Shown: one piece after another, positions 14,954 through 52,376 of the stretch
Layout of the letters: each line of letters opens with the position of its first letter
Numbering within the stretch: position 1 is the first letter of the stretch
NCBI RefSeq assembly: GCF_000317535.1
Contig: NC_019757.1
Location: 4,987,501 to 5,051,500, forward strand
DNA: 64,000 nt
Source: Cylindrospermum stagnale PCC 7417
Lineage (GTDB): Bacteria; Cyanobacteriota; Cyanobacteriia; Cyanobacteriales; Nostocaceae
Direction of reading: 5' to 3'
The notes under the pieces: generated by a model
Databases searched by the model: none
What the model saw: the letters and a program-made list of their open reading frames with translations, nothing else
Told to the model about the DNA's origin: nothing
Translations under genes and position numbers: made by a program

Positions 14954-17347
14954 TCAAACTAGACGCTGGTTAGGTGAAAGTTGGCTCTCAAAGCGGCTAT
15001 AAACAATTTGAGTAGGATACCAAGAAGAAAACCAGTACATATCTTGAATAACTTTGTCAGCGCTCTGAGTATCTGCCAACTCAAAGTGAACTAAAGCTAA
15101 ATTATTTAATCCGACCGCTTCTCGTCCGTCTTGGAACCAGGGATATTTCCAGAACATTAGACACTGTAGCGATCGCCATTTGTCGTTTTTTGCTTTTTGT
15201 CGGGGAGTCATTAGCCACGGTACATTGGCGCCAAAATCAGGAGTACGAGCGCTTTGTCGAGGAATCCACTCCAGCGCACAATTCCAGTCGGGGTTAACTT
15301 GCGGCTGACGGCGGCGGGATTGTCTCCTTGAAACCTCTACCATATTAGGTGGATGAGACCAGCCGAGCCAACGGCGCACTTTTTCTCTTAAAAGCCAGTC
15401 TTTCAGTCTTGTATGGACGAGTCGAGTCAAAGTCTCTTCATTTTTTAATGCACTAGCAGTTAACTGCACTAAGACAGATTTGGCTTCAGAATCTGGAGAC
15501 GTACTAGCATGAGACATGCGGACAACAGAACCGTAGTGAATATCGCCTGAGAGGACAACGACTTGTTGGCGTTGCTCAAACAAAGTATTGATAAATTGCG
15601 CCAATGCTTCAGAATGAACGTTCCAAGAATCTCCCACATCCGTAGAAAACACTTGATCGCGCTGCAACTGCCAGTGGTGAATCTGATCAATTATTTGCAA
15701 GCCAAATAGATTTGTCGGTGCAATCACCAATGTCGCTGGAATCTGAGATTGTTGTAGAGGCTGGGAGAGTTGGCGCTCGAAAGCTTGCGGGCATAGTAGC
15801 ATTGGTGGCGCAGTTGGTTTTTGATCAGCAGGGTAGCCCCGCCATGTGCGCGTATCTAAAACAATCACTTCATGGCAATAGCAGCGTACCGTATAATGCC
15901 AAGTGAGTGCCTCAGGGTGTCGAGCTAGCACCAAAACGGGTCCGTCTTCAACAAACTCAGGTAGTCCAGTGAGTGGGTTGTTGGCTGGCATTCCTACATA
16001 GTTAGCGATCGCATTACAAGCCTCGGTCTGCATTCCTTGAGAATTAGACCAGTCCTCAGCAGCCGCCAATAATTTTTCACCAGGTTTACCAGCTTCAAAT
16101 TGCCCCGGCGTATTGCCCCACGCCTGAAAAACTGCATAAGCTAACAGCGCATTTTGTACAGTTCGTCGCCCCAAAGGTCGCCCCAGTACTCGTAGACACC
16201 AAGCCTGGTTGAGGTTCCAATCATCACTGACATCATGGTCATCAAAGATGGTGTACATAGGAATATTGGCGAGGGCGCGCCGCACTTTCCAGAGGGTGTG
16301 AATAAATTGCCGCATCTCCCCAACTTCTCGATCCCACCGCCGACTTGCTTTGCGAGTATTCATCATTTCCCGTCCCTTAGCCCAAGTGGTTGGCCAACAG
16401 ACTGGCGACCAAGCTAAAAGGTAAGATGCATAATACTCGCCAAGTCCCAAAAGATGACTGTTAACCTTAGCGCGTTTATTTTGTAATCCTGCCGTGAAGC
16501 CAGCTTGGTTAGTTGCAATCTCAGCCCGATGTCCGGGAGGCAGCTGCTTTGGCGTGTAATAAGCGACATCTGAAGCTTGAGTCTGAGCCACCGGTAACTG
16601 TTCTTCCCAGCCCAGCAGCGCATCACCTAAGTTACTGCACACCCACAATAACGGGTCGGCAACATCATCTCCATAAATCTGGTCACCAGTGAGAAAAAGT
16701 TGTTGGGGACGTTGTTTTGGCTGGTTTGCAGTATTCTCGATTAAGCAGTCGAGGATGGGCAGCGCATCGAACCCATCACCGTGGGGTTTGCGACAGGAAC
16801 CATGCACAATTCGCAAATCTTCGAGACGGCGCGCCGGCAGGACAAATGTTGGTTTTTGATGTTCAAAATAGCTGATGTTGACAGTGGTGAAACGGCTTGA
16901 ACACAAGGCTTGGGACAACGTTTGCTGAATTTGGGAGGTCTGGTCAGTGAACTGGAGGTCGTAGGCATAGATGCGATCGCCTTTGGCGGGGCGTAGCCCA
17001 TCGCCTTTGGCGGGGCGTAGCCCATCGCCTTTGGCGGGGCGTAGCCCATCGCTTCCAGCGGGCGTTTCGCCATCGCCACTCAAGTGATCTTTACCCGTAG
17101 ACCGAGCCGTTACCGCCACAATATGAAGCGATTTTCCCAAGGCAACAGTAGAGCGTCTTCCCGCCAACAAACAATTTCCTAACACCGTACCGTCATTTGT
17201 TGTCTCGTAAACCTTGAGTTTTACCTGGCAAGGCTGTTTGAGTGCCACCCAGACCGTAACTGATTCGGGTTCCGTATGTTGTAACATTGGCCCCGCCAAA
17301 ATCAGCGGCAGGTTGTTTAAAAATTCGTCCCCAGATTGATAGTTCAT
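14954..17347 (-). CDS. PhoD-like metallophosphatase with in-frame repeat insertion
   Basis: Calcineurin-like phosphoesterase of the PhoD/PhoD-like group, expected to hydrolyse phosphodiesters or monoesters with bound metals. Visible motifs are VHGSCRKPHGDG, TGDQIYGDD, IFDDHDVSDDWN and VLSGDIHYGS, the family's metal-site blocks. I take the ATG at 17347 (MNYQSGDEFLNNLPLILAGPML) because it begins just before the conserved N-terminal strand. An upstream ATG at 17389 would add 14 hydrophobic residues and cannot be excluded. About residues 98-125 contain three copies of the octapeptide DGLRPAKG, encoded by a 24-bp DNA repeat (16978-17049), so this loop was inserted rather than inherited. The gene is convergent with the NHLM ABC gene. 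Confidence 0.8.
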   Translation of the reverse strand: MNYQSGDEFLNNLPLILAGPMLQHTEPESVTVWVALKQPCQVKLKVYETTNDGTVLGNCLLAGRRSTVALGKSLHIVAVTARSTGKDHLSGDGETPAGSDGLRPAKGDGLRPAKGDGLRPAKGDRIYAYDLQFTDQTSQIQQTLSQALCSSRFTTVNISYFEHQKPTFVLPARRLEDLRIVHGSCRKPHGDGFDALPILDCLIENTANQPKQRPQQLFLTGDQIYGDDVADPLLWVCSNLGDALLGWEEQLPVAQTQASDVAYYTPKQLPPGHRAEIATNQAGFTAGLQNKRAKVNSHLLGLGEYYASYLLAWSPVCWPTTWAKGREMMNTRKASRRWDREVGEMRQFIHTLWKVRRALANIPMYTIFDDHDVSDDWNLNQAWCLRVLGRPLGRRTVQNALLAYAVFQAWGNTPGQFEAGKPGEKLLAAAEDWSNSQGMQTEACNAIANYVGMPANNPLTGLPEFVEDGPVLVLARHPEALTWHYTVRCYCHEVIVLDTRTWRGYPADQKPTAPPMLLCPQAFERQLSQPLQQSQIPATLVIAPTNLFGLQIIDQIHHWQLQRDQVFSTDVGDSWNVHSEALAQFINTLFEQRQQVVVLSGDIHYGSVVRMSHASTSPDSEAKSVLVQLTASALKNEETLTRLVHTRLKDWLLREKVRRWLGWSHPPNMVEVSRRQSRRRQPQVNPDWNCALEWIPRQSARTPDFGANVPWLMTPRQKAKNDKWRSLQCLMFWKYPWFQDGREAVGLNNLALVHFELADTQSADKVIQDMYWFSSWYPTQIVYSRFESQLSPNQRLV
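16978..17077. repeat. Intragenic 24-bp repeat x3 plus a related unit
   Basis: Three direct identical copies of a 24-bp unit, CGCCTTTGGCGGGGCG followed by TAGCCCAT (16978-17001, 17002-17025, 17026-17049). A related unit follows at 17050-17077. It is bounded by a HIP1 GCGATCGC. The 24-bp length preserves the phosphatase reading frame. The related unit reappears as the reverse complement at 43185-43216. Confidence 0.93.
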
Positions 17348-17525
17348 TGCAAACCACACCAACTGTCTAATAAATAACAGTATGATCAAAAACCAGATTC
17401 CTGATCTTGTTCACAAAAGATGTTATGGCACGCGGTGAAGCGCACCATTTGGTAATCAGCGCATTTGCTTAAAAATCAAAACACTCTACCAGGGGACGCG
17501 CGGAAACTTACGAGACGCTTTGCCT

Positions 17526-18938: not shown

Positions 18939-19383
18939 AAAACTCCGGATATAACATCGGCCTGTCGCCTGTAGCGGCGTCAGTCTTAGGCGGACGGTTT
19001 GAAGGACTCGATGGGCAGTAGCGCAAAGACTGAGAGCGAATGCCGCAGCTTTGCATTCTAGCAGAGTGCAGTCTGTTGTGTCTTGAAAATTCGGCAGGTT
19101 GACGATTGTAGCGTGCGTTCCCTAACCCACGAATTAAGATTTTAAATGAATAAAACCAATACTATTTTGACTCACACAACCAGTTCGTTACCTTTATATT
19201 CTGGATCATTTGATTTAGTTCAGGTGATAAATCTCAAGTGAGGTGAACCATTCCGGGTGTAAATAATTAAAGGTTTGTAGTGAGGGCTTCAGCCCTCAAA
19301 ATAGGGCTAAAGCCCTTACTACAAGCTAATTTCCATATTTTTTACATTAGTTAATATAATTTGAGTTATTCTTACCAACCTAC
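18939..19383. other. Intergenic region with a dispersed hairpin repeat
   Basis: No gene is recognised. An imperfect inverted repeat spans 19275-19324 (TTGTAGTGAGGGCTTCAGCC facing GGCTAAAGCCCTTACTACAA), a repeat type scattered in Nostoc genomes. A half-copy lies at 40078-40100. The rest is AT-rich and probably contains the helicase promoter. Confidence 0.6.
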
Positions 19384-19434
19384 TTATTCGTCGATTACAG
19401 AAACTGTTTTGAATGCAATTCTTGGTAAAGTCAT
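19384..19434 (-). CDS. Candidate 16-codon peptide downstream of the PKS
   Basis: A short ORF, MTLPRIAFKTVSVIDE, with a perfect AGGAGG at 19446-19441 placed 6 nt before its ATG. Its position about 210 bp downstream of the PKS stop on the same strand, and the unusually strong ribosome-binding site, are the only evidence. I do not recognise the peptide. It could be an expressed micropeptide, a leader or a chance ORF. Confidence 0.35.
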   Translation of the reverse strand: MTLPRIAFKTVSVIDE

Positions 19435-19641
19435 GGCAAACCTCCTGTGGATATAGGTTTTAGCCTTTTATTTCTATTTTATCACCCCACTCTGACAGAA
19501 GCGGTTGATGGACGATATGTCCGCGATGGATGAAAGAAACGAAATAAAAAGTACGGAAAAAGCTTATACTTGCATTGTGTCTTGACAGTTAAGACCGTTC
19601 CCTCAATGGTGCATCTTTGTCCGTACAAAAGAGGGCTATTC

Positions 19642-22600
19642 CTATACAATTAAAGCTGAAAGAACTTCTTGAGCCAGATAATCAACAAGTTCTTCTAACG
19701 TCGGATAGTCAAAAACTAAAGTTGAAGGCAGAGAAGAACCCAAACTCGTTTGTAGACGATTGCGTAATTCTATAGATGTCAGCGAATCCATTCCCATCTC
19801 GAAAAAGCTGCGTTTTCGATCTAAAGGATTCGAGGGATTCCAACCCAAAACTTGAGCTAAGTGAGAGCTAACATGAGCTACTAATAGTGCTTTGCGTTCC
19901 CGGACTGGAACTGCTTCTAATTGCCGGGCCAATTTGATTGCACCTTGTTGCTTTGATGATTGCTCTGATCCCTTGGTGAAATTGGTGAAGAATGGCGAGG
20001 CTGTCCATTGTTTTTCCCGGAACTGTGACCAATTCAGGGGTATCACACCAACGCGGATGGGTTGCTCTAGAAGCAACTTTTCCAAAACCTGTAATCCTTG
20101 GTTAGAGGCTATAGCCCCCATTCCTACCCGATTGAGACGCTCAATTACCTGTTGGTTTCTCGCTGCCATTCCTACCTCGCCCCAAGCTCCCCAGTTGATA
20201 GTTGTGCTTGGTAGTCCAAGCGATCGCCGATAAAATGCCAAACTATCCAGAAAAGCGTTGGCTGCTACATAATTGGCTTGACCAACAGCACCTAACATGG
20301 AAACACAAGAAGAAAACAGCACAAAGAATTCTAAAGGCAGTTTTTGGGTTAATGTGTGTAGATTCCATGCTCCTTGTACTTTCGGAGGCATGACTCGCCT
20401 GAAAGACTCCCAGTTTTGCTGTTTGAGTAAGCGATCATCCAAAACGCCTGCGGTATGAATAATCCCTTGCAGGGGAGGTGAGGATGGAACAAGGGAATCT
20501 AACAACTGAGCTACTTGCTCGTAGTCAGACACATCAACTTGAGCAACTACCACCTTAGCGCCAGAGAGTTCTAGCTGCTCCAACTGGCTGCGGACAGCAG
20601 GCTTAACTGCACTGCGCCCTACTAACACTAGATGTCTAGCTCCATGTTCTACCATCCAGCGAGCCACTAGTAAACCCAGATCGCCCAAGCCGCCAGTAAT
20701 CAAATAGCTGCTATCCTCACGGAAACTAATACCATGGTAAGTGGCATCACCTATTTCTTTTGGCTGTGTGACGATTATTTTGCCAATGTGTTCGGCTCGC
20801 TGCATATAGCGAAAGGCACTGATTACCTCTTGAATCGGAAACACCTTTTGTGGCGGTAACGAGAGCTTACCTTGGGTAAACTGTTGGCTCAGATGATGTA
20901 GCATCGGCTGCACCAGTTCTGCTTTTTCCAAACATATTTGCCGTAAATCGATGAAATGGTAGGAAATATCAGCTTTGAATTGTTTGACTTGCTCCGAATC
21001 CCAAACATCCCGTTTAGCTATTTCCAAAAAACGACCATTAGGTGAAAGTACCCACATACTCTTTTCAATAAACCCTTCACCAGTCAAAGAGTTGAGGACA
21101 ATATCTACTCCCTGTCCATTGGTGTCCCTGATCACCTGTTCGGCAAAATCCAACGTCCGGGAATTGTAAACGTGTTGCACGCCTATAGACTTAAGGGCTT
21201 CCCATTTGCCTGGGCTGGCTGTGGCAAAAACCTCAGATCCTTTTGCTAATGCCAGTTTCACGGCTGCCATTCCAGTTCCTCCGGCCGCCGCATGGATTAA
21301 TACCTTGTCTTTGGCAGTGATCTGAGCTATTTGGTGTAAAGCGTAATATGCGGTGACAAAATTTACTGGGATAGCGGCAGCTTGCTCAAAATTCAGACCA
21401 TCGGGTATGAATGCTACCAACTTAGAGTTTACCGTCACGTACTTACTGAAGCTGCCAAATGCGATCGCCATCACAGCATCTCCAACGCGGAAATTTTCTA
21501 CTCCTTCTCCAACAGCGACTATTTCACCGGCGCATTCAACACCCAATTCATTATCTCGTTCAAAAGGTAGCGCCCCCAGCACATCTAAGACATCGATAAA
21601 ATTTAGTCCTGTAGCACGTACCCGAATTTCTACTTCACCTGAGCTAGCTTGATGGCGGTTCGTCGGTACTAGTTGTAAATTGTCTGGTATACCTCTTTCG
21701 GGTATCTCTAGGGAAAACGACTCTGAGCGCAGCCAGCTAGCGATCGGTTGGGTGCGTACCAGTCGTGCTACATAACGCTTACCATCACGAAAAGCAACTT
21801 GTCCTTCTGAACTTTGTGAGCTTATTTCTGACAGAATTACTCGATCTGCGTCTGTCACATTCGGATCTAAATCCACTAGCACGCAATTCAGTTCTGGGTG
21901 CTCCAGAGCGATGACTTGCCCCATACCCCATAAAGGAGATTGAGCTAGTCCACTAACGCCAGACACTACTTTTTCTAATGCTTGCGCTCCTTGAGTAACT
22001 AACCACAAGTTAGGAGGTTCAGAATAGTTCTCAAGCATTGCCTGCACTAAGTGCAAAGTACTGCCACAACTGATTTTTGCTGCTACATCCAAGTCTGCTG
22101 CTGTCTGAATTGATGCTGCATTCAAGCTCCAGCAATTTACTACCCCATGCACATGGGGAACGGCTTGGCATAGCTGCTGAAAGTGTTCGGGGCTAGCTGG
22201 ATTTAGCCGAAATTCGTGTTCAGCTATCTGTTCATACTCGTTTGCTGCGAATATAATCGTGCAACTTTCTCCTTGCGATCGCAGGCGAGCTACTAACTGC
22301 TGACCAATCCCTTGATCATCGGCCAAAATTAACCAATTTCTTTTTGTGTCTAGCTTGGGCTGAGTTTTTACATCTGTATTATGTTCTTGGAGTACCCACT
22401 CCACCTCATAAAGCCAATCTTCCCAAGTTTTTTGCGAAGTGCCTAACATGGCTTCACGGCGAACAGCCTTAAGTTGCAAACCTTCTACAGTGGCAATTAG
22501 CTCTCCTGAAGCAGCGAACAGTTGCAAATCAGCGATCAGGTTCTGTTTGTTTTGTTGTACCCCTTCTACTTTTCGCAATTGGGCATGACTCCATATGGAG

Positions 22601-25600
22601 ACACCAGGACGCTTGTAAATCTGTAGGCGCTCTAAACCTATTGGCACATAGCTAATTTGTTTTCCATTATCAGGGGAGATGGCTTCCAAAACCTGTAAGG
22701 CGATGTCCAACAACACTGGATGTAATTGATAATCTATGGCATCTGAGACTAATTCTTCCACCAGCCTTATTTTGCCCAGAGCAACTTTTTCATTTTTAAG
22801 AAGTTGTTCCATTCCCCGGAAACTGTAACCATAATTGAGGTCTTGTTCTTGAAAACGTCTGTATAATTCTGCGATGGTAAATTCTTGAGTACATTGCGCT
22901 TTTAATGCAGCTAAATCCATGTACTCAGTTACTGATTTTTGTTCCTTAAAGAACAATTTACCTGAAGCATGGAGCATCCAAGATAGCTTCCCATTATTAT
23001 TTTTTGTAGTAGATATAAGGCTATATATCTCGAATGAATAAACACGATCTGACTGTGGAGTTAAAATCATCTGAACGGTCTTGAATTCATTCTCTTGCCA
23101 AATCATAGGCTGTTGTAAGACAACCTCTTCCAGGCAAAAATTGTCAGATTTGGCAATAATAGAGCCAGCTGCTAATGCCATTTCCAAGTAAGCTGTTCCT
23201 GGCATAATCGTTGCCTCAAAAAGAGAATGATCTTTCAGCCACACTGGCGAGTCTGGACTGATTTGAGACTGGAAACGAATCTCTTCTGTTCCTGCTAAAC
23301 ATAACTCTTGTCCCAATAGAGGATGAAGCTTTTGGTTGTCCTGACCATTGTTCTGAAAAAATGCTTGAGTGGGATATCCCTGATCTGCTTCTACCCAATA
23401 GCGCTGTCTTTGGAAGGGATAAGTTGGCAAGTGCAGCCGATAACGCAAATAGTCTCGATCAAAGCCAAACCAGTTGACGGAGGCTCCATGCATATATAGT
23501 TTTGCCAAACTGGTTAACATCACTTGCCAATCGTCTTGATCAGGATGCAAACTGGAGAGCCAAATTCTATTACTGTCAGGTAGGCAAGATTGACCCATTC
23601 CCAATAAGATTGGTTTCGGTCCAATTTCCAGCAAGGTTTCTATCGCCAGGTGTTCCAGGCTTTCCATGCTTGTAGTAAACTTGACTGGTTTGAGGATATG
23701 AGTACACCAATATTCTGGAGTTGCTACTTCTGAATTTGCTACCTTGCCCGTGACATTGGAAATTAGCTTAATTTGTGGAGCAGAAAAGCTAATTTGTCGG
23801 ACTACCTGCTCAAATTCTACCAGCATCGACTCCATCAACGGCGAATGGAAAGCATGGGATACATTTAATTTTTGTGTCTTGACTCCTGATGCCTGGAGCT
23901 TTTCACAAACGGCATTTATTGCCTCGCGGCGACCAGAAATTACAATGCTGCGATCGCCGTTGATTGCAGCAATGGAGACTTCATTGGCATAAGGTTGAAT
24001 GGCTATCTTTGCCTGTAGTTCATCTAACTGTAGCACTGCCATTTCACCATCTTCAGGCAGTGCTTGCATTAAACGCCCCCGTTGGGCAATTAGTTTTAAG
24101 CCATCTTCCAAGCTAAAAACTTCTGCAACACAGGCAGCTACATATTCCCCGACACTATGACCCATGACAACATTAGGTTCTATGCCCCAGGATTTCCACA
24201 ACTGGAACAGAGCATATTCGAGGGCAAATAGGGCTGGTTGGGTATAAGCAGTTTGATCAATAGGCAGAGGGGAAAATTCTTCTTTCTCCCCTGCTTCCCT
24301 GTTCCCCAGCGAGTGTACCTGGGCAGGATAGAGAACCTCAAGCAAGGGCTTTTCTAGATAAGGAAGAAGAATTTCATTGCACTTGTCAAGGGTTTCTCGA
24401 AAAGTTGGTTGAGTCTCGTAAAGTTGCCGTCCCATATTCACGTACTGCGAGCCCTGACCTGTGAAAAGAAAGGCGATCGCATTTGTTGGTAGAAGATTGT
24501 GCGTTTGATCGGTAGTTTCTTGCTCAAAATGGCTCAGACGAGCGCAAAGCTGTTCAATAGATTCAGCGGTGACTGCCAAACGATGGTTAAAGTGCTTGCG
24601 TCCTGTGTTAGCTGTAAAACAAATATCTGCCAGTTTTTCATCTGGATGCGATCGCACATTAGCTACATAATTCTGTGCCAACTCTCCCAGAGCTTTCTCA
24701 GTTCTTGCCGATAGTGTCAAAATATGCAGTGGGCGCTCATTGGGGTCTGGATTTTTAGTTAACTCTGGTGTTTCTTCTAAAACCAGATGACAATTCGTTC
24801 CCCCCATGCCAAAAGCACTAACTCCCGCTCTGCGGGGAATCCCGTCAGTTTTCCATTCAGATAATGTTGCATTAACGTAAAAGGGGCTGTTGGCAAAATC
24901 AATTCTCGGATTAGGTTGCTGAAAATGCAGGCTAGGTGGTATCTGTTGATGCTTAAGAGCAAGTATAGTTTTGATTAACCCTGCTATACCTGCGGCTTCA
25001 ACAATGTGTCCAATATTGGTTTTAACTGAGCCAATGGCACAGAAACCGCTTTTTTCGGTAGTTTTGTCAAAAGCTTGGGTAAGAGCAGCAATTTCAATGG
25101 AATCTCCTAAACTGGTGGCTGTTCCGTGGGTTTCAATATAATTAATGGTGCTAGCCCCAATTTGGGCAATCGCCAAAGCCTCAGAGATTACAGCTGCTTG
25201 TCCTTCCACGCTGGGAGCCGTATAACCGACTTTTAAGGCACCATCATTATTAATGGCTGACCCTTTGATCACAGCATGAATACAGTCTCCATCAGCAATA
25301 GCTTGGCTAAGTAACTTCAGGACAACGATTCCACCTCCATTGCCGAACACAGTTCCTTGAGCCTGTGCATCAAAGGCTCTACAATGTCCGTCAGGAGACC
25401 AAATCATGTCCTCTTGGTACAAATAGCCCATTTTTTGAGGAACGCAGACACTAACGCCTCCCGCCAGAGCCATATCACATTCACCGTTGAGCAAACTTTG
25501 GCAGGCGATATGAACTGCTACCAGTGCTGTTGAGCAAGCCGTTTGAATATTAACACTTGGGCCAGTTAAATTCAGCTTATAAGAAATCCATGTAGGCAGA

Positions 25601-26085
25601 AAATCTTTCTCGTTGACAAGCCTAATTTGTAAATCACTAGTTGATGTTAAAAAAGTGCGCGATCGCGAAAAACCTTGGTTAGGATAAACGTTATTAATTA
25701 GGTAAGTGTTCATACCCGAACCTGCGTAAACTCCGATTACGCTAGGATCGGTTTCTGGGTTGTAGCCAGCACTTTCAAGGGCTTCCCAGGCACATTCTAA
25801 TATAATCCGCTGTTGTGGGTCCATAATTTCGGCTTCTTTAGTGCTGTAGCCGAAAAATGCAGCATCAAAATTTTCAATATTTGGCAGAACTGCGCCTGCT
25901 TTGACGTAATTAGGATTACGCAGCAAAGTTGGGTCAATATGCTCCAGTTCATTCTTAGCAAAAAAAGCAATAGACTCTACTCCATCTCGCAGATTATGCC
26001 AAAATTCATCAATATTTTTTGCACCTGGAAAGCGGCATGACATACCAATAATAGCTATATCTGTTTCTCTAACACTGATAGTCAT
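19642..26085 (-). CDS. Type I polyketide synthase module KS-AT-DH-ER-KR-ACP
   Basis: A single, fully reducing modular PKS of 2147 residues. KS: C184 in QTACSTAL, H320 in [10 protein letters not shown]360 in [19 protein letters not shown] with S644, and HAFH at 744-747, which indicates malonyl-CoA. DH (from about 920): [14 protein letters not shown], where the usual glycine of HxxxGxxxxP is glutamate, with a plausible [10 protein letters not shown] aspartate. ER (about 1380-1690): [14 protein letters not shown] (about 1715-1900): TGGLGDLG with YVAAN and an LDD motif (B-type). ACP: GMDSLTS with S2101. It has no thioesterase and no C-methyltransferase. It would add one malonyl unit and reduce it to methylene. 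The ATG overlaps the upstream NRPS stop (ATGA at 26085-26082), and AGGAGA precedes it, so the two are translationally coupled. Confidence 0.92.
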
Positions 26086-28970
26086 AGTTTTCTCCTATCA
26101 CGATGGTTTTGCCTTAGTTGCCTTTGTTGTTGTTGTCTGGACAAATCACGTTCCGTTCTACTGCTTTGCTGGTGCTTAATAGTAAAAGCTTGTTTGTTAT
26201 TTGGACTTAAATGTTGGGCTAGAGTATGAATTGTGGGGTATTGAAACAGCGCCACAGATGATAGTTCTAACCCAAAAATTTCGACTAATTGTTTACCAAC
26301 CTGGAATAAGAGCAAAGAATATCCACCTAACTCGAAAAAGTTATCATGAATTCCTACAATGTCCAATTGCAGTACTTCCTGCCAAACTTTAGCAATGATT
26401 TTTTCGGCATCAGATTTAGGCATGACCAGAACTGTTGATAACTCAGGTCTAGACCTTTCTGGTACAGGTAACGCCCGACGGTCTAGTTTCCCACTTGGTG
26501 TCAGCGGCATTTTATCGAGTACAACAAGAGCTGCTGGCACCATATATTCAGGTAGAGATTCTTGTAAATAACTGCGTAATGTCGATTTAAGTTTGTCTGC
26601 TACCTGTCTTGGGAAAGTGCTGCTAGTATTGTCTGTCTTCGGATAGATGTCTGCGGTTGGCTGGCTGCGGTTTTTATCCCCCATTAACTGCGACTGGGTA
26701 ATTTGCTCAACATCTAATTCCTGACTCAAGGTGAAAGCAGCAGTTAAGTTTGGAACTACATAAGCCACTAGGCGTTTGTATCCGGGGATATCTTCTCTAG
26801 GTAAAACAGCACTCTCTCGGACAGCGGGATGTTGTGTCAATACGGCTTCTATTTCGCCCAATTCTATGCGATAACCGCGAATTTTTACCTGATGGTCGGC
26901 ACGACCAAGATATTGAATATTACCATCTTTTAAGTAACGGGCTAAGTCGCCAGTTTTATAGAGGCGACCAGAACTAAAGGGGTTGGTAATGAATCTTTCC
27001 TGAGTCAGTTCTGGACGATTGATATAGCCTAAAGCTAAACAATCGCCGCCAATATGTAGTTCCCCAGGAATTCCAATGGGAACAGGTTGGAGAAACTTAT
27101 CAAGTATATATATTTGGACATTATCAATCGGACGACCGATAGGAGGAAGGACAGGCCAACTATTCACTTCCCCTGTCAGTTTATAAGCTGTAATAACATG
27201 GCTCTCTGTTGGCCCATAATGATTGTATAAAGTGCAATCTATTTGGCTAAATAAGTTAGCAATCACTTTTGATATCTGCAATTGTTCTCCCGCAGTAATG
27301 ACTTCACGAAGAGTCTTAGGCACTGATGCTGCTGAATTTACTGCTTCAGATAACTGTTGTAAAGCGACAAAGGGAAGAAATAATCTTTCAATTTTTTTCT
27401 CCATCAAGAAATTTAACAAAGCTATGGGATTTCGTCGCACTTCCTCCGAGATCAAAACCAATGTTCCACCAGAACAGCAAGTAGAAAAAATTTCTTGGAA
27501 AGATACATCGAAGCTCAAGGGAGAAAATTGTAGAGTTTTGGCTTTGTTAGAAACTGTTGTATTTTTGAGTTGCCAATTAATCAAATTAGCAAGAGCAAGG
27601 TGCGTCATCGCTACCCCTTTGGGGTTTCCTGTAGAACCAGAGGTATACATGACATAGGCTAAGTTGTGAGGTTGAACCTGAAAAACTGGATTTTCCTCAC
27701 TCTCTTGAATAATGGCTTCCCAGTCTCTATCTAAACAGACTATTTTATACCCTGCGTTTGCCTGACCTAATTGGGGGAATGCGAACAGTAACTTCTCAGT
27801 TGTCAGTAGTACACCCACCTGTGAATCTGACAACATATAAGCTAAACGCTCTTGAGGATAAGCAGAGTCTAACGGCACATAAGCTGCACCTGCTTTAAGA
27901 ATACCTATAAGTCCCACTAACATATCTAGGGAGCGATCAATACAAATGCCCACTAGCATCTCTGGTCTTACTTCTAGTGAACGCAAATAGTGTGCTAGCT
28001 GATTGGCTTTTCGATTCAGCTTTAAGTAGGTTAGCTGCTGCTCTCCATAAACTACGGCTTCCATCTCTGGGGTGTTTTCCACCTGAGCCTCAAATAGTTG
28101 ATGAATACATTTATCTCGTAGTTCGTCTGTTTGAGTATTATTCCACTGGTTTAATAACTGATTTTGTTCAGCTTCAGTTAACAATGGCAAAGTGGAAATA
28201 CACTCATTTGCGTTGCAGATGAAGTTGACAAGCATTGTCTGTATATGACTCAACATCCGCTTAATGGAGTTTGACTCGAACAACTCGGCATTATATTCAC
28301 AATTTATAATTATTCTTCCTTCTTTTTTAGAAGGAAAAATTAATATATCGCACCTAGTGTTAAAAGTCTGGATTTCTGTCAGGCTTTCTAACATTATCTT
28401 TATTTCTGAAAGACTAAACGTTAGACCACAAGGCACCAGCATAATTTGAAAAATTGGTGCTTTTATAAAGTTCTGCTCTTCCTTAAGTCTTGCAACCAGC
28501 TTTTCAAAAGGATAATCTCGATTACGTGTAGCTTCTTCAACTGTCTTAGCAACACATTTTAAAACTTCTTTAACAGTTAGATTTTCTATTAAATTGGTTC
28601 GTAGCAACACTGGATTAATGAATTTTTCAGTAATTGCTCCTTCTTTTTGCCTAAGACTATCAACTATTAAAGAACCCACAATAATATCTTCTTGTCTTGT
28701 GTAACGCAGTAAAATCACTTTTAATGCAGTTAGGAGTATTGTAAAGATAGTGATATTTTCACATAGACAAAAATTATCGAGCTTTAAGCAAAAATTTTCA
28801 TCAAGCTCAATAACTTCTTCAGCTTTAGTAAGTGATTGATTCGGTTTTCGTGAATGATCTAATGGTATTTCTAAAACAGGAAGCTCACCACAAAGTTGCT
28901 GTGTCCAGTAGGCTTCCTGTTCATCTGAATTAATTTGCGTATTTAGTAGCGTTGTATTATAGTTCATCAT
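26082..28970 (-). CDS. NRPS: half condensation domain, adenylation (Pro-like code), PCP
   Basis: A 962-residue synthetase. Residues about 18-285 match only the C-terminal half of a condensation domain (starting AYWTQQLCGELPVLEIPLD). The HHxxxDG catalytic half is absent, so condensation activity is unlikely. The adenylation domain (about 290-830) has A3 YTSGSTGNPKG (442-452) and A10 lysine K828. The specificity residues I read are D488 V489 Q492 F531 I558 A560 H584 V592 I593 K828 (DVQFIAHVIK), close to codes I recall for proline or 4-methylproline in cyanobacteria. The PCP serine is S885 in LGGYS. A 55-residue insertion sits between the A8 and A10 regions. It would load an amino acid as starter and pass it to the PKS. 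Its start overlaps the stop of a 38-codon ORF. Confidence 0.9.
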   Translation of the reverse strand: MMNYNTTLLNTQINSDEQEAYWTQQLCGELPVLEIPLDHSRKPNQSLTKAEEVIELDENFCLKLDNFCLCENITIFTILLTALKVILLRYTRQEDIIVGSLIVDSLRQKEGAITEKFINPVLLRTNLIENLTVKEVLKCVAKTVEEATRNRDYPFEKLVARLKEEQNFIKAPIFQIMLVPCGLTFSLSEIKIMLESLTEIQTFNTRCDILIFPSKKEGRIIINCEYNAELFESNSIKRMLSHIQTMLVNFICNANECISTLPLLTEAEQNQLLNQWNNTQTDELRDKCIHQLFEAQVENTPEMEAVVYGEQQLTYLKLNRKANQLAHYLRSLEVRPEMLVGICIDRSLDMLVGLIGILKAGAAYVPLDSAYPQERLAYMLSDSQVGVLLTTEKLLFAFPQLGQANAGYKIVCLDRDWEAIIQESEENPVFQVQPHNLAYVMYTSGSTGNPKGVAMTHLALANLINWQLKNTTVSNKAKTLQFSPLSFDVSFQEIFSTCCSGGTLVLISEEVRRNPIALLNFLMEKKIERLFLPFVALQQLSEAVNSAASVPKTLREVITAGEQLQISKVIANLFSQIDCTLYNHYGPTESHVITAYKLTGEVNSWPVLPPIGRPIDNVQIYILDKFLQPVPIGIPGELHIGGDCLALGYINRPELTQERFITNPFSSGRLYKTGDLARYLKDGNIQYLGRADHQVKIRGYRIELGEIEAVLTQHPAVRESAVLPREDIPGYKRLVAYVVPNLTAAFTLSQELDVEQITQSQLMGDKNRSQPTADIYPKTDNTSSTFPRQVADKLKSTLRSYLQESLPEYMVPAALVVLDKMPLTPSGKLDRRALPVPERSRPELSTVLVMPKSDAEKIIAKVWQEVLQLDIVGIHDNFFELGGYSLLLFQVGKQLVEIFGLELSSVALFQYPTIHTLAQHLSPNNKQAFTIKHQQSSRTERDLSRQQQQRQLRQNHRDRRKL

Positions 28971-29083
28971 ATTGTAAGGTTAGTTGCAACGACGACGGAA
29001 CTACCTCCTAAGGTAACCGTTAAAATAACAATAATTACGCCAGCAAAGCCCATAACAGCAAGTTTGTTTACGATTATGTCCAT
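28967..29083 (-). CDS. 38-aa hydrophobic micropeptide, translationally coupled to the NRPS
   Basis: A small ORF starting ATGGACATAATCGTA (29083) and ending in TGA that overlaps the NRPS ATG as ATGA (28970-28967). A GAGG (29096-29093) lies at Shine-Dalgarno distance. The peptide begins MDIIVNKLAVMGFAGVIIV and continues as one hydrophobic helix (about 6-24) with a GGSS break, then a second hydrophobic stretch to the end. It is the first gene of the NRPS-PKS operon. I do not recognise it. The overlap, ribosome-binding site and membrane-peptide composition together argue that it is real. It could anchor the synthetase or act in export, or the ORF may mainly drive NRPS translation. Confidence 0.65.
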   Translation of the reverse strand: MDIIVNKLAVMGFAGVIIVILTVTLGGSSVVVATNLTI

Positions 29084-29251
29084 TTTTAGCAACCTCATTT
29101 CCTTATATTGCTAGTTAAATATAATTAATGGCAAGAACATCTATTTAGCCTAATTAAAATTAAAACTATAATTTTTGTCTATTTTTTTTACATTTAATTT
29201 AATAAACAGATAATCTCATGTTTATCAATAAAATGCAATAGCAGTTAAATA
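29084..29251. promoter_or_regulatory. AT-rich promoter region of the NRPS-PKS operon
   Basis: About 170 bp of very AT-rich DNA between the micropeptide start and the end of a deleted transposon. It must contain the 5' region of the operon unless transcription enters from the transposon. No promoter boxes could be assigned with certainty. Confidence 0.35.
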
Positions 29252-29908
29252 GTATCCGCTCAATAGTTCGGGGGAGGGAGTTATTCGGGCATCCATGACC
29301 AACTCAAGGGATTGAGAGCAGATTTTTCGCGAATAATAGTCCCCAAAAATGGAATATTCCCAACCTGAGAAATGCGGTCACGCACATATTCAAAAAAGCT
29401 GATTCCCAACTTACGAGTAGTGGCAACAAGAGACATAAAAGTATCCCTTGCCTGAGTACCCTCAAGAGTCTGAGTTGCATAACTTATATTACGCCGTTGT
29501 ACCATCGTCCGAGCAGCTAACTCCGCTGGATTATTGTGCAAAGGTAATTCAGGATGCTCTAAAACATAGAGCAATTCCGAAATTTTCAGGCGCGTTAATC
29601 GTTTTCGCTCATCCAACTGTTCATAACCACTGTCTGTGGAAAAAAGGTTATTTTCGTCCCGCAGGTGTTGATTCTCTGATTCTAAGCCTTTTACTTTTAA
29701 TTGTAATTGCTCTATTAGGTTCAGTAATACCTCTACTGTCTGACGCATGGATTCGTCTGCAATCCCTTTTGGCTCGATGGTTTGCAGCAAATCGCATACT
29801 GATTTTTCATTTGAAATAAGCTTTTGCGTCATATTGCATATTTTATGACACTGTGTGTGCATCGCTTCACTTATTTTCTTCTGCAACCCCTACTTATTGA
29901 GCCGATAC
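29252..29908 (-). mobile_element. Internally deleted insertion element with imperfect terminal inverted repeats
   Basis: The left end GTATCCGCTCAATAG (29252-29266) and the right end TTATTGAGCCGATAC (29894-29908) are inverted repeats matching at 13 of 15 positions, extending to about 22 bp at 18 of 22. Between them lies only the 201-codon transposase remnant. The flanking 8 bp (GTTAAATA and CTTAAAAG) are similar but not identical, so no clean target duplication is left. At about 657 bp it is much shorter than a complete IS66-type element, suggesting a non-autonomous derivative. Confidence 0.65.
29281..29886 (-). pseudogene. IS66-like transposase, internal deletion
   Basis: The N-terminal about 90 residues are a coiled-coil-rich transposase start (LLNLIEQLQLKVKGLESENQ). 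From about residue 105 the frame continues straight into the typical transposase C-terminus (LPLHNNPAELAARTMVQRR, DTFMSLVATTRKLGISFFEY, NPLSWSWMPE). The catalytic middle with the DDE residues is missing. The frame is preserved across the junction, so a 201-residue fusion could still be made and could bind ends, but it cannot catalyse transposition. The family name rests on the C-terminal signature and is moderately certain. Confidence 0.75.
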
Positions 29909-51608: not shown

Positions 51609-52376
51609 ATGGACTGGAAAGAAATCAGAGGCAACTGGGTAGTCATTCCCCGAAATCCCATCGGTATAATCCATTTCTTAGGAGGTGCATTTGTCGCCAC
51701 CGCACCCCACCTGACTTACCGCTGGTTACTAGAGCACTTGGCTAGCAAAGGGTATGTAATCATTGCTACCCCTTTTGTCAACACCTTAGATCATCAAGCG
51801 ATCGCCAAATCTGTACTGCTAAACTTTGAGCGCACCAGAGAACGCCTACAGGATACTGGGGAATTACGCAAGCTTTACCTCCCGATTTACGGTGTCGGTC
51901 ATAGTATGGGTTGCAAACTCCACTTGCTTATTGGTAGCTTCTTTGAAGTCGAACGTGCAGGTAATATTTTAATATCCTTCAATAACTACGCTGCCAAGGA
52001 AGCTATCCCTTTAGTAGAACAGTTAAATTCAACTTTGGCAATCGAGTTTACCCCCACGCCTTTAGAAACTAACCAGCTTGTGCAAGAAAAATATCAGATC
52101 CGGCGCAATTTATTAATAAAATTTAGCAATGATACCATCGACCAATCAGCAGTGTTAACCAAAATATTACAAGCACGCTTTCCTGAGATGGTGAGTGTGC
52201 AAACATTGCCTGGAAATCACACCACACCCTTAGGTCAAGACATTAAATGGCAACCAGGAGCATCTTTCACTGCCTTTGACGCTTTCGGGCAATGGTTCAA
52301 GCAAGAAGTCTACCGCGACTTGAACGGGCTAAAACGCGCTATGCTCTTGTGGCTGAATCCTCTCTCACCACCATAA
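51609..52376 (+). CDS. DUF1350 family protein (alpha/beta-hydrolase-like)
   Basis: A 255-residue protein starting MDWKEIRGNWVVIPRNPIGI. The cyanobacterial and plastid DUF1350 family is recognisable by IHFLGGAFVATAPHLTYRWLLEHLASKGYVIIATPF and YGVGHSMGCKLHLLIG, where GHSMG is a nucleophile-elbow-like motif. An esterase or lipase function is plausible but unproven. Confidence 0.82.
   Translation: MDWKEIRGNWVVIPRNPIGIIHFLGGAFVATAPHLTYRWLLEHLASKGYVIIATPFVNTLDHQAIAKSVLLNFERTRERLQDTGELRKLYLPIYGVGHSMGCKLHLLIGSFFEVERAGNILISFNNYAAKEAIPLVEQLNSTLAIEFTPTPLETNQLVQEKYQIRRNLLIKFSNDTIDQSAVLTKILQARFPEMVSVQTLPGNHTTPLGQDIKWQPGASFTAFDAFGQWFKQEVYRDLNGLKRAMLLWLNPLSPP

Follow-up and report, generated by a model that had tools for sequence, protein, structure and literature searches.

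A rearranged and probably cut-off proline-type NRPS-PKS gene pair in Cylindrospermum stagnale PCC 7417

Introduction

An NRPS gene and a PKS gene standing together, with no release domain behind them, raise the question of whether such a pair is a tiny pathway complete in itself or what is left of a longer assembly line. The pair considered here lies in a stretch of 64,000 nucleotides of the genome of Cylindrospermum stagnale PCC 7417, which is called the window below and is numbered from its first letter. We give a probability of about 60% to the reading that the pair is a mosaic, the front end of a proline-starter hybrid line from a rare Nostocales group that begins with half a condensation domain (half-C), and that its exit was lost by an IS-linked cut. 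Genomes, contigs and loci other than the window are cited by our own handles.

The gene pair and its predicted substrate

26082..28970, minus strand: NRPS starter module gene, 962 aa, with half-C, A, PCP and a basic, Gln/Arg-rich C-terminal tail
19642..26085, minus strand: PKS module gene, 2147 aa, KS-AT-DH-psiKR-ER-KR-ACP, with no cMT, C-terminal tail or TE

The two ORFs share the minus strand, overlap by 4 bp and are uninterrupted. Pfam finds AMP-binding, PP-binding and part of a Condensation domain in the NRPS, and KS, AT, DH, ER (ADH), KR and PP-binding in the PKS. Active-site motifs were found in the KS, AT, DH, ER, KR, ACP, A and PCP; the AT carries HAFH, and the DH has Glu at a position usually held by Gly, as do three other DHs of the fetched loci. 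With the KS, AT, DH, ER, KR and ACP motifs given what we take to be their usual meanings, HAFH presumably marking malonyl specificity, the PKS is supported as a fully reducing, apparently malonyl-specific cis-AT module. The first-pass annotation had likewise described one malonyl extension and a complete set of reducing domains, and the HAFH motif of the AT and the motifs of the DH, ER and KR bear this out.

The window contains 45 ORFs of at least 110 aa. Pfam models were run on 34 of them (limits E 1e-3 or 1e-5), the remaining 11 being short and nested in larger ORFs, and outside the pair these 34 hold no thioesterase, terminal-reductase, NRPS or PKS domain, as the first-pass annotation had said of thioesterase, reductase and further module. 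One of the Pfam matches is a DUF1350 protein encoded at 51609-52376, a family to which we ascribe an alpha/beta-hydrolase-like fold. A small hydrophobic ORF of 43 aa (28967-29098, minus strand) has a stop codon overlapping the start codon of the NRPS gene; no counterpart lies upstream of the NRPS gene in six relatives. Elsewhere, a long PhoD-like ORF (14954-17389) holds dispersed short repeats at 16971-17081, which take many of the 42 own-genome matches from one search.

The ten-residue code of the A domain, extracted by alignment at what we assume to be the GrsA positions, is DVQFIAHVIK, the same as had been read by eye of the sequence alone, and that of the relative G091 is nearly identical (DVQFIAHVVK). 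Entries of a published code table assign DVQFIAHVXK and DVQYIAHVTK to proline (PMC2866473), in support of the earlier description of the code as proline-like. The A domain is thereby predicted to activate L-proline or a close analogue. The half-C-A-PCP protein would load this residue on its PCP, the basic tail, which is common to the window and four relatives, would pass the prolyl unit on to the KS of the PKS protein, and the PKS would add one malonyl unit and reduce it fully, giving 3-(pyrrolidin-2-yl)propanoyl-ACP. The chain predicted earlier, a prolyl starter with a reduced C2 extension, agrees with the proline-type code and with the single, fully reducing malonyl module.

A half-condensation start common to a rare group

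28152..28928, minus strand: half-C domain, aa ~15-273, matching only positions 191-456 of the 456-position Pfam Condensation model

The C domain of the NRPS is incomplete, a point that the first-pass annotation missed: only the C-terminal half is there, aligning with the C-terminal lobe of solved C domains, and the half that bears the HHxxxDG motif is absent from the protein. Such a start is no local accident: relatives in six other genomes (G091, G166, G309, G486, G509 and G521) begin at the same point. A further relative, G462, is without any C part, and the loci include five further candidate half-C-type starts that are more remote (33-35% identity). Between the window and G091 the half-C has a dN/dS of 0.29, so it is being retained despite the missing catalytic half. 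Both a starter module with a truncated, probably inactive C* and gatekeeping by the C-terminal subdomain of C have already been published (PMC7253712).

Relatives of the NRPS are few. Besides its own genome they occur in 12 genomes among 217 of the family (E<=1e-245), 5 among 388 of the order (E<=1e-250) and 2 among 386 of the phylum (E<=1e-255), these genome sets overlapping and several of the matches being ordinary full modules rather than half-C starters. A scan of named genomes kept 74 loci, with a top identity of 55%; named plasmids gave 48% at most among the matches listed (best 8 of 246), and the plasmid-like contig C4 of the same genome gave no near match.

The lines that follow the half-C start vary. 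That of G091 runs half-C-A-NMT-PCP, KS-AT-DH-cMT-KR-ACP and then TubC_N-C-A-PCP-KS-AT-cMT-ACP-TE, with two glycosyltransferase genes and a MATE gene after the TE gene. G309 has half-C-A-PCP, KS-AT-DH-cMT-KR-ACP and TubC_N-C-A-PCP-TE, followed by a TauD gene and a carnitine acyltransferase-like gene. The half-C-A-PCP of G166 is fused to C-A-PCP-TE, with TauD next, and G521 has a single protein of 4780 aa (half-C-A-NMT-PCP, two C-A-PCP modules, KS-AT, carrier and TE) with two glycosyltransferases and MATE downstream. Thus four of the six lines reach a thioesterase, the other two (G486 and G509) being cut by contig ends within the PKS. In the KS tree the KS of the window groups with the half-C-linked KSs and that of G462 (support 99/100 and 100/98); the tree leaves out the KS of G205, which is too short (49% identity over 244 aa). 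Two of the six relatives (G166 and G521) count against our reading of the pair as the front end of a hybrid line, since what follows the half-C module there is another NRPS module and no PKS.

Between the PKS and the NRPS-PKS-TE gene of G091 lies a gene (C52 32054-33478; L109 14055-15479) whose product combines a thiaminase-1 domain with a solute-binding fold and has a mannan-binding (MVL) repeat at its C terminus. In G309 the gene after TauD (L110 16160-18007), the last of this bacterial NRPS-PKS cluster, is carnitine O-acyltransferase-like.

Remodelling of the two modules

26556..26774, minus strand: linker between the A core and the A10 region, 73 aa (aa 733-805), scar of an N-methyltransferase deletion
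20800..21696, minus strand: ER domain, aa 1464-1762, 87% identical over 230 aa to a module of G205
19642..20076, minus strand: ACP segment and stop, aa 2004-2147, with a tail-less end

The 73 residues between A8 and A10 compare with 46 in three relatives that have no N-methyltransferase, 50 in G462 and 439-444 in the three that have one, and the extra residues of the window match the edges of the N-methyltransferase insertion. The linker is, on this alignment, the scar of an N-methyltransferase domain cut out in frame.

The PKS has been altered as well. It is without the cMT found in G091 and G309, and it has an ER; there is none in these two, the only half-C-linked PKSs read through the KR, nor in G462. 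Its ACP segment is 32-33% identical to those of G091, G309 and G462, against 73% over 134 aa to G205. Taken piece by piece, identity to G091 versus the best G205 contig is 87% versus 49% (244 aa) for the KS, 70% versus 63% for the AT, 66% versus 70% for the DH, 65% versus 75% for the psiKR, 75% versus 85% for the KR (the latter over 62 aa only; 72% over 241 aa on another G205 contig) and 33% versus 73% for the ACP segment, while the ER, at 87% (230 aa) to G205, has no counterpart in G091. In the KR tree the window falls in a clade of four with G205, G462 and G091 (100/99), where G091 is its nearest neighbour with weak support (85/77). The half-C lines are thus where the KS and AT fit, and the ER and ACP do not fit there. 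We had considered that everything from DH through ACP came as a single block from a G205-like module; this was softened, the KS and AT being nearer G091 and the ER and ACP nearer G205, with the DH and psiKR only slightly nearer G205 and the KR placed, weakly, with G091.

The line in this genome has been remodelled, with the N-methyltransferase deleted, a C-methyltransferase absent, and an ER and a foreign ACP present. The pair makes a legible example of the rebuilding of a hybrid assembly line, with a methyltransferase excised in frame, a foreign-looking ER and ACP, and an end that adjoins IS-associated sequence.

The 3' end of the PKS and its flanks

19385..19631, no strand assigned: IS-associated repeat, 247 bp, beginning ~10 bp beyond the PKS stop
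19259..19386, no strand assigned: dispersed repeat, MITE-like by our own label, where many of 64 own-genome matches fall
29281..29886, minus strand: IS66-like transposase gene remnant (Pfam match below cut-off)

Among the best 40 matches, the eight best-scoring ACPs whose protein end is visible (48-66% identity) extend past the YLxQEVL helix by a tail of ~27-55 aa, and others continue into a TE or KS; the PKS of the window stops right after its ACP, at the point where those eight carry the tail. The missing tail was presumably a docking element. Two observations among the matches listed weigh against a lost exit: the nearest ACP, that of G205 (84% over 74 aa), is cut by a contig end, and a PKS of the same genome (L138, 37%) is likewise tail-less.

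IS-associated sequence lies at both ends of the pair. The repeat beyond the PKS stop consists of two pieces, 99% and 97% identical to C2:276,560-276,995 in the same genome, which adjoins an IS110-family transposase gene; the IS66-like remnant at the other end has a partial copy, 86-91% identical, at C2:2.069 Mb. Because 10 bp separate the ORF from the start of the repeat, the PKS could still have its original stop. No PKS or NRPS piece that might be the missing 3' part was found within 16 kb of the other copy of the repeat (C2:0.277 Mb). The pair is flanked by a helicase and a phosphoketolase gene, and these are not neighbours in either of the two other genomes of the genus: G094 has them on different contigs and G418 has them 1.4 Mb apart. 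Neither genome gave a match to the NRPS at E<=1e-245. At C2:0.02 Mb there is a PKS together with an NRPS fragment, which was set aside as more distant (46%). At C2:23,352-28,165 (L170) a PKS gene of 1104 aa stands beside a fragment of an A domain that is interrupted by stops, and the two look like a further NRPS-PKS line that has decayed.

No full-length version of the same chimera was found, which counts against the lost-exit reading and leaves the missing 3' part an inference. An IS-linked rearrangement would have cut the line just past the ACP, removing the C-terminal tail, and the same cut would have removed the following module and the release step. Taken as a design, the compact orphan line without a release domain of the earlier view is not supported, given four of six half-C relatives that reach a thioesterase, a tail that the eight best-scoring ACPs have and this one has not, and IS-associated sequence adjoining the PKS.

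Another module of the genome might also take over the chain in trans. NRPS and PKS genes are plentiful in it, and there are three TubC_N docking domains, one of them on a C-A-PCP-TE protein 47% identical to the terminal NRPS of G309. The PKS of the window, however, is without the C-terminal tail common to G091, G309 and G462, and the C-A-PCP-TE protein has a ligase gene and ACP, ScoD-like and ScoE-like genes of its own beside it and probably serves another pathway; it was set aside as a partner (C2:4.48 Mb) because of these genes, and a hand-over in trans strikes us as unlikely. The locus in question (C2:4,478,075-4,486,336; L135 8076-16337) encodes an AMP-ligase, TubC_N-C-A-PCP-TE, an ACP, a ScoD-like FcoT and a ScoE-like TauD, the Sco models matching below their cut-offs. 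We take this gene set, on assumed Sco roles, to be an isonitrile lipopeptide pathway; its NRPS ends in a TE.

Functional state and predicted product

The pair could also be a pseudo-cluster in decay, its frames still open just because the cut happened recently. The IS-associated sequence at both ends fits this, as does a small surplus of changes on the branch leading to the window: relative-rate counts give more amino-acid changes in the window than in G091 in 10 of 12 comparisons (p<0.05 in 3 of 12, uncorrected and not independent), which is compatible with mild relaxation. Against it, there is no stop or frameshift in 3109 codons, and the catalytic motifs are kept; we regard decay as quite unlikely. 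Across nine segments dN/dS against G091 is 0.09-0.33, a value that averages both branches, the ACP segment being saturated. Since the pair is fully open, with catalytic motifs intact and dN/dS in this range, its function may persist. The same openness, motifs and dN/dS also count against the lost-exit reading that we prefer.

A pair that still works would be expected to make 3-(pyrrolidin-2-yl)propanoyl-ACP, and this might come off by closing into a bicyclic lactam. In a line with no partner, the secondary amine of the prolyl unit could attack the thioester to form a five-membered lactam ring, or the module would stay charged. Deletion of the N-methyltransferase bears on this, since the closure would be prevented by an N-methyl group.

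This chemistry allows the pair to be seen as complete after all, a minimal self-releasing line in which the saturated gamma-amino thioester closes on its own pyrrolidine nitrogen, with no need of a thioesterase, to give the five-membered lactam hexahydropyrrolizin-3-one. In the predicted intermediate the secondary amine would be free and in position to form a five-membered ring, the N-methyltransferase that would prevent this in lines of the G091 type is deleted, and the catalytic motifs are intact. On the other side, the absent tail and the IS-associated repeat next to the PKS point to loss and not to design, and the window lineage has the excess of changes described above. The papers listed for this lactam in connection with PKS or NRPS concern, to judge by titles, fungal products or Diels-Alderases. 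We think such a self-contained line unlikely. We hold as more doubtful still a history in which loss of the N-methyltransferase freed the prolyl nitrogen, gain of the ER saturated the chain and loss of the exit then led to self-release by lactam closure to a pyrrolizidinone. If true, this would give a cyanobacterium a way to a pyrrolizidinone that needs no release domain, and a pair that still works would test whether an assembly line can lose that domain once its product is able to close on itself.

Comparison with known systems

In openly licensed literature on cyanobacterial truncated-C starters, pyrrolizidine or lactam release and the proline code, the titles and abstract openings do not describe this pair. 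The loading module of the thermoactinoamide synthetase ThdA resembles that of the window in starting with a truncated C*, called probably inactive, but it is from Thermoactinomyces, takes leucine as starter and belongs to an NRPS with later modules (PMC7253712). In the nosperin line, NspC and NspD place a proline module before a PKS that adds a reduced biketide, and the same paper describes cyanobacterial mosaic lines with mixing of NRPS and cis-AT PKS modules and TubB/TubC-type docking; there, however, proline joins a growing chain rather than starting it, and NspD (KS-AT-KR-ER-ACP-TE) has its own TE, which the PKS of the window has not (PMC12184294). The ana cluster of anatoxin also uses a proline starter, to which the first PKS adds a fully reduced acetate, but with stand-alone AnaC and AnaD, the prolyl-ACP oxidase AnaB and the further PKSs AnaF and AnaG (PMC6053186). 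Among the 34 scanned ORFs of the window there is no gene for a stand-alone A, a stand-alone ACP or a prolyl-ACP oxidase, and one PKS stands in place of three successive ones after the starter, so that the different gene set noted in the earlier comparison with anatoxin stands, and the likeness itself is loose.

Nearest are the half-C starter lines of the Nostocales (G091, G309, G166, G521, G509 and G486, the last apparently Nostoc sp. CHAB 5824), which have the half-C start in common with the window; the four in which an NRPS gene borders a PKS gene also have a basic tail on the NRPS, and their KSs fall in one clade with that of the window. Unlike the window, three of the six have an N-methyltransferase, all whose PKS middle was read (G091, G309 and G486) have a cMT, and G091 and G309 have no ER and do have a PKS C-terminal tail. 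The run-on to a TE seen in such lines has no equivalent behind the pair in the window, which we read as a loss. The pair is probably a rearranged, cut-off member of this rare known type, and less likely a complete tiny pathway.
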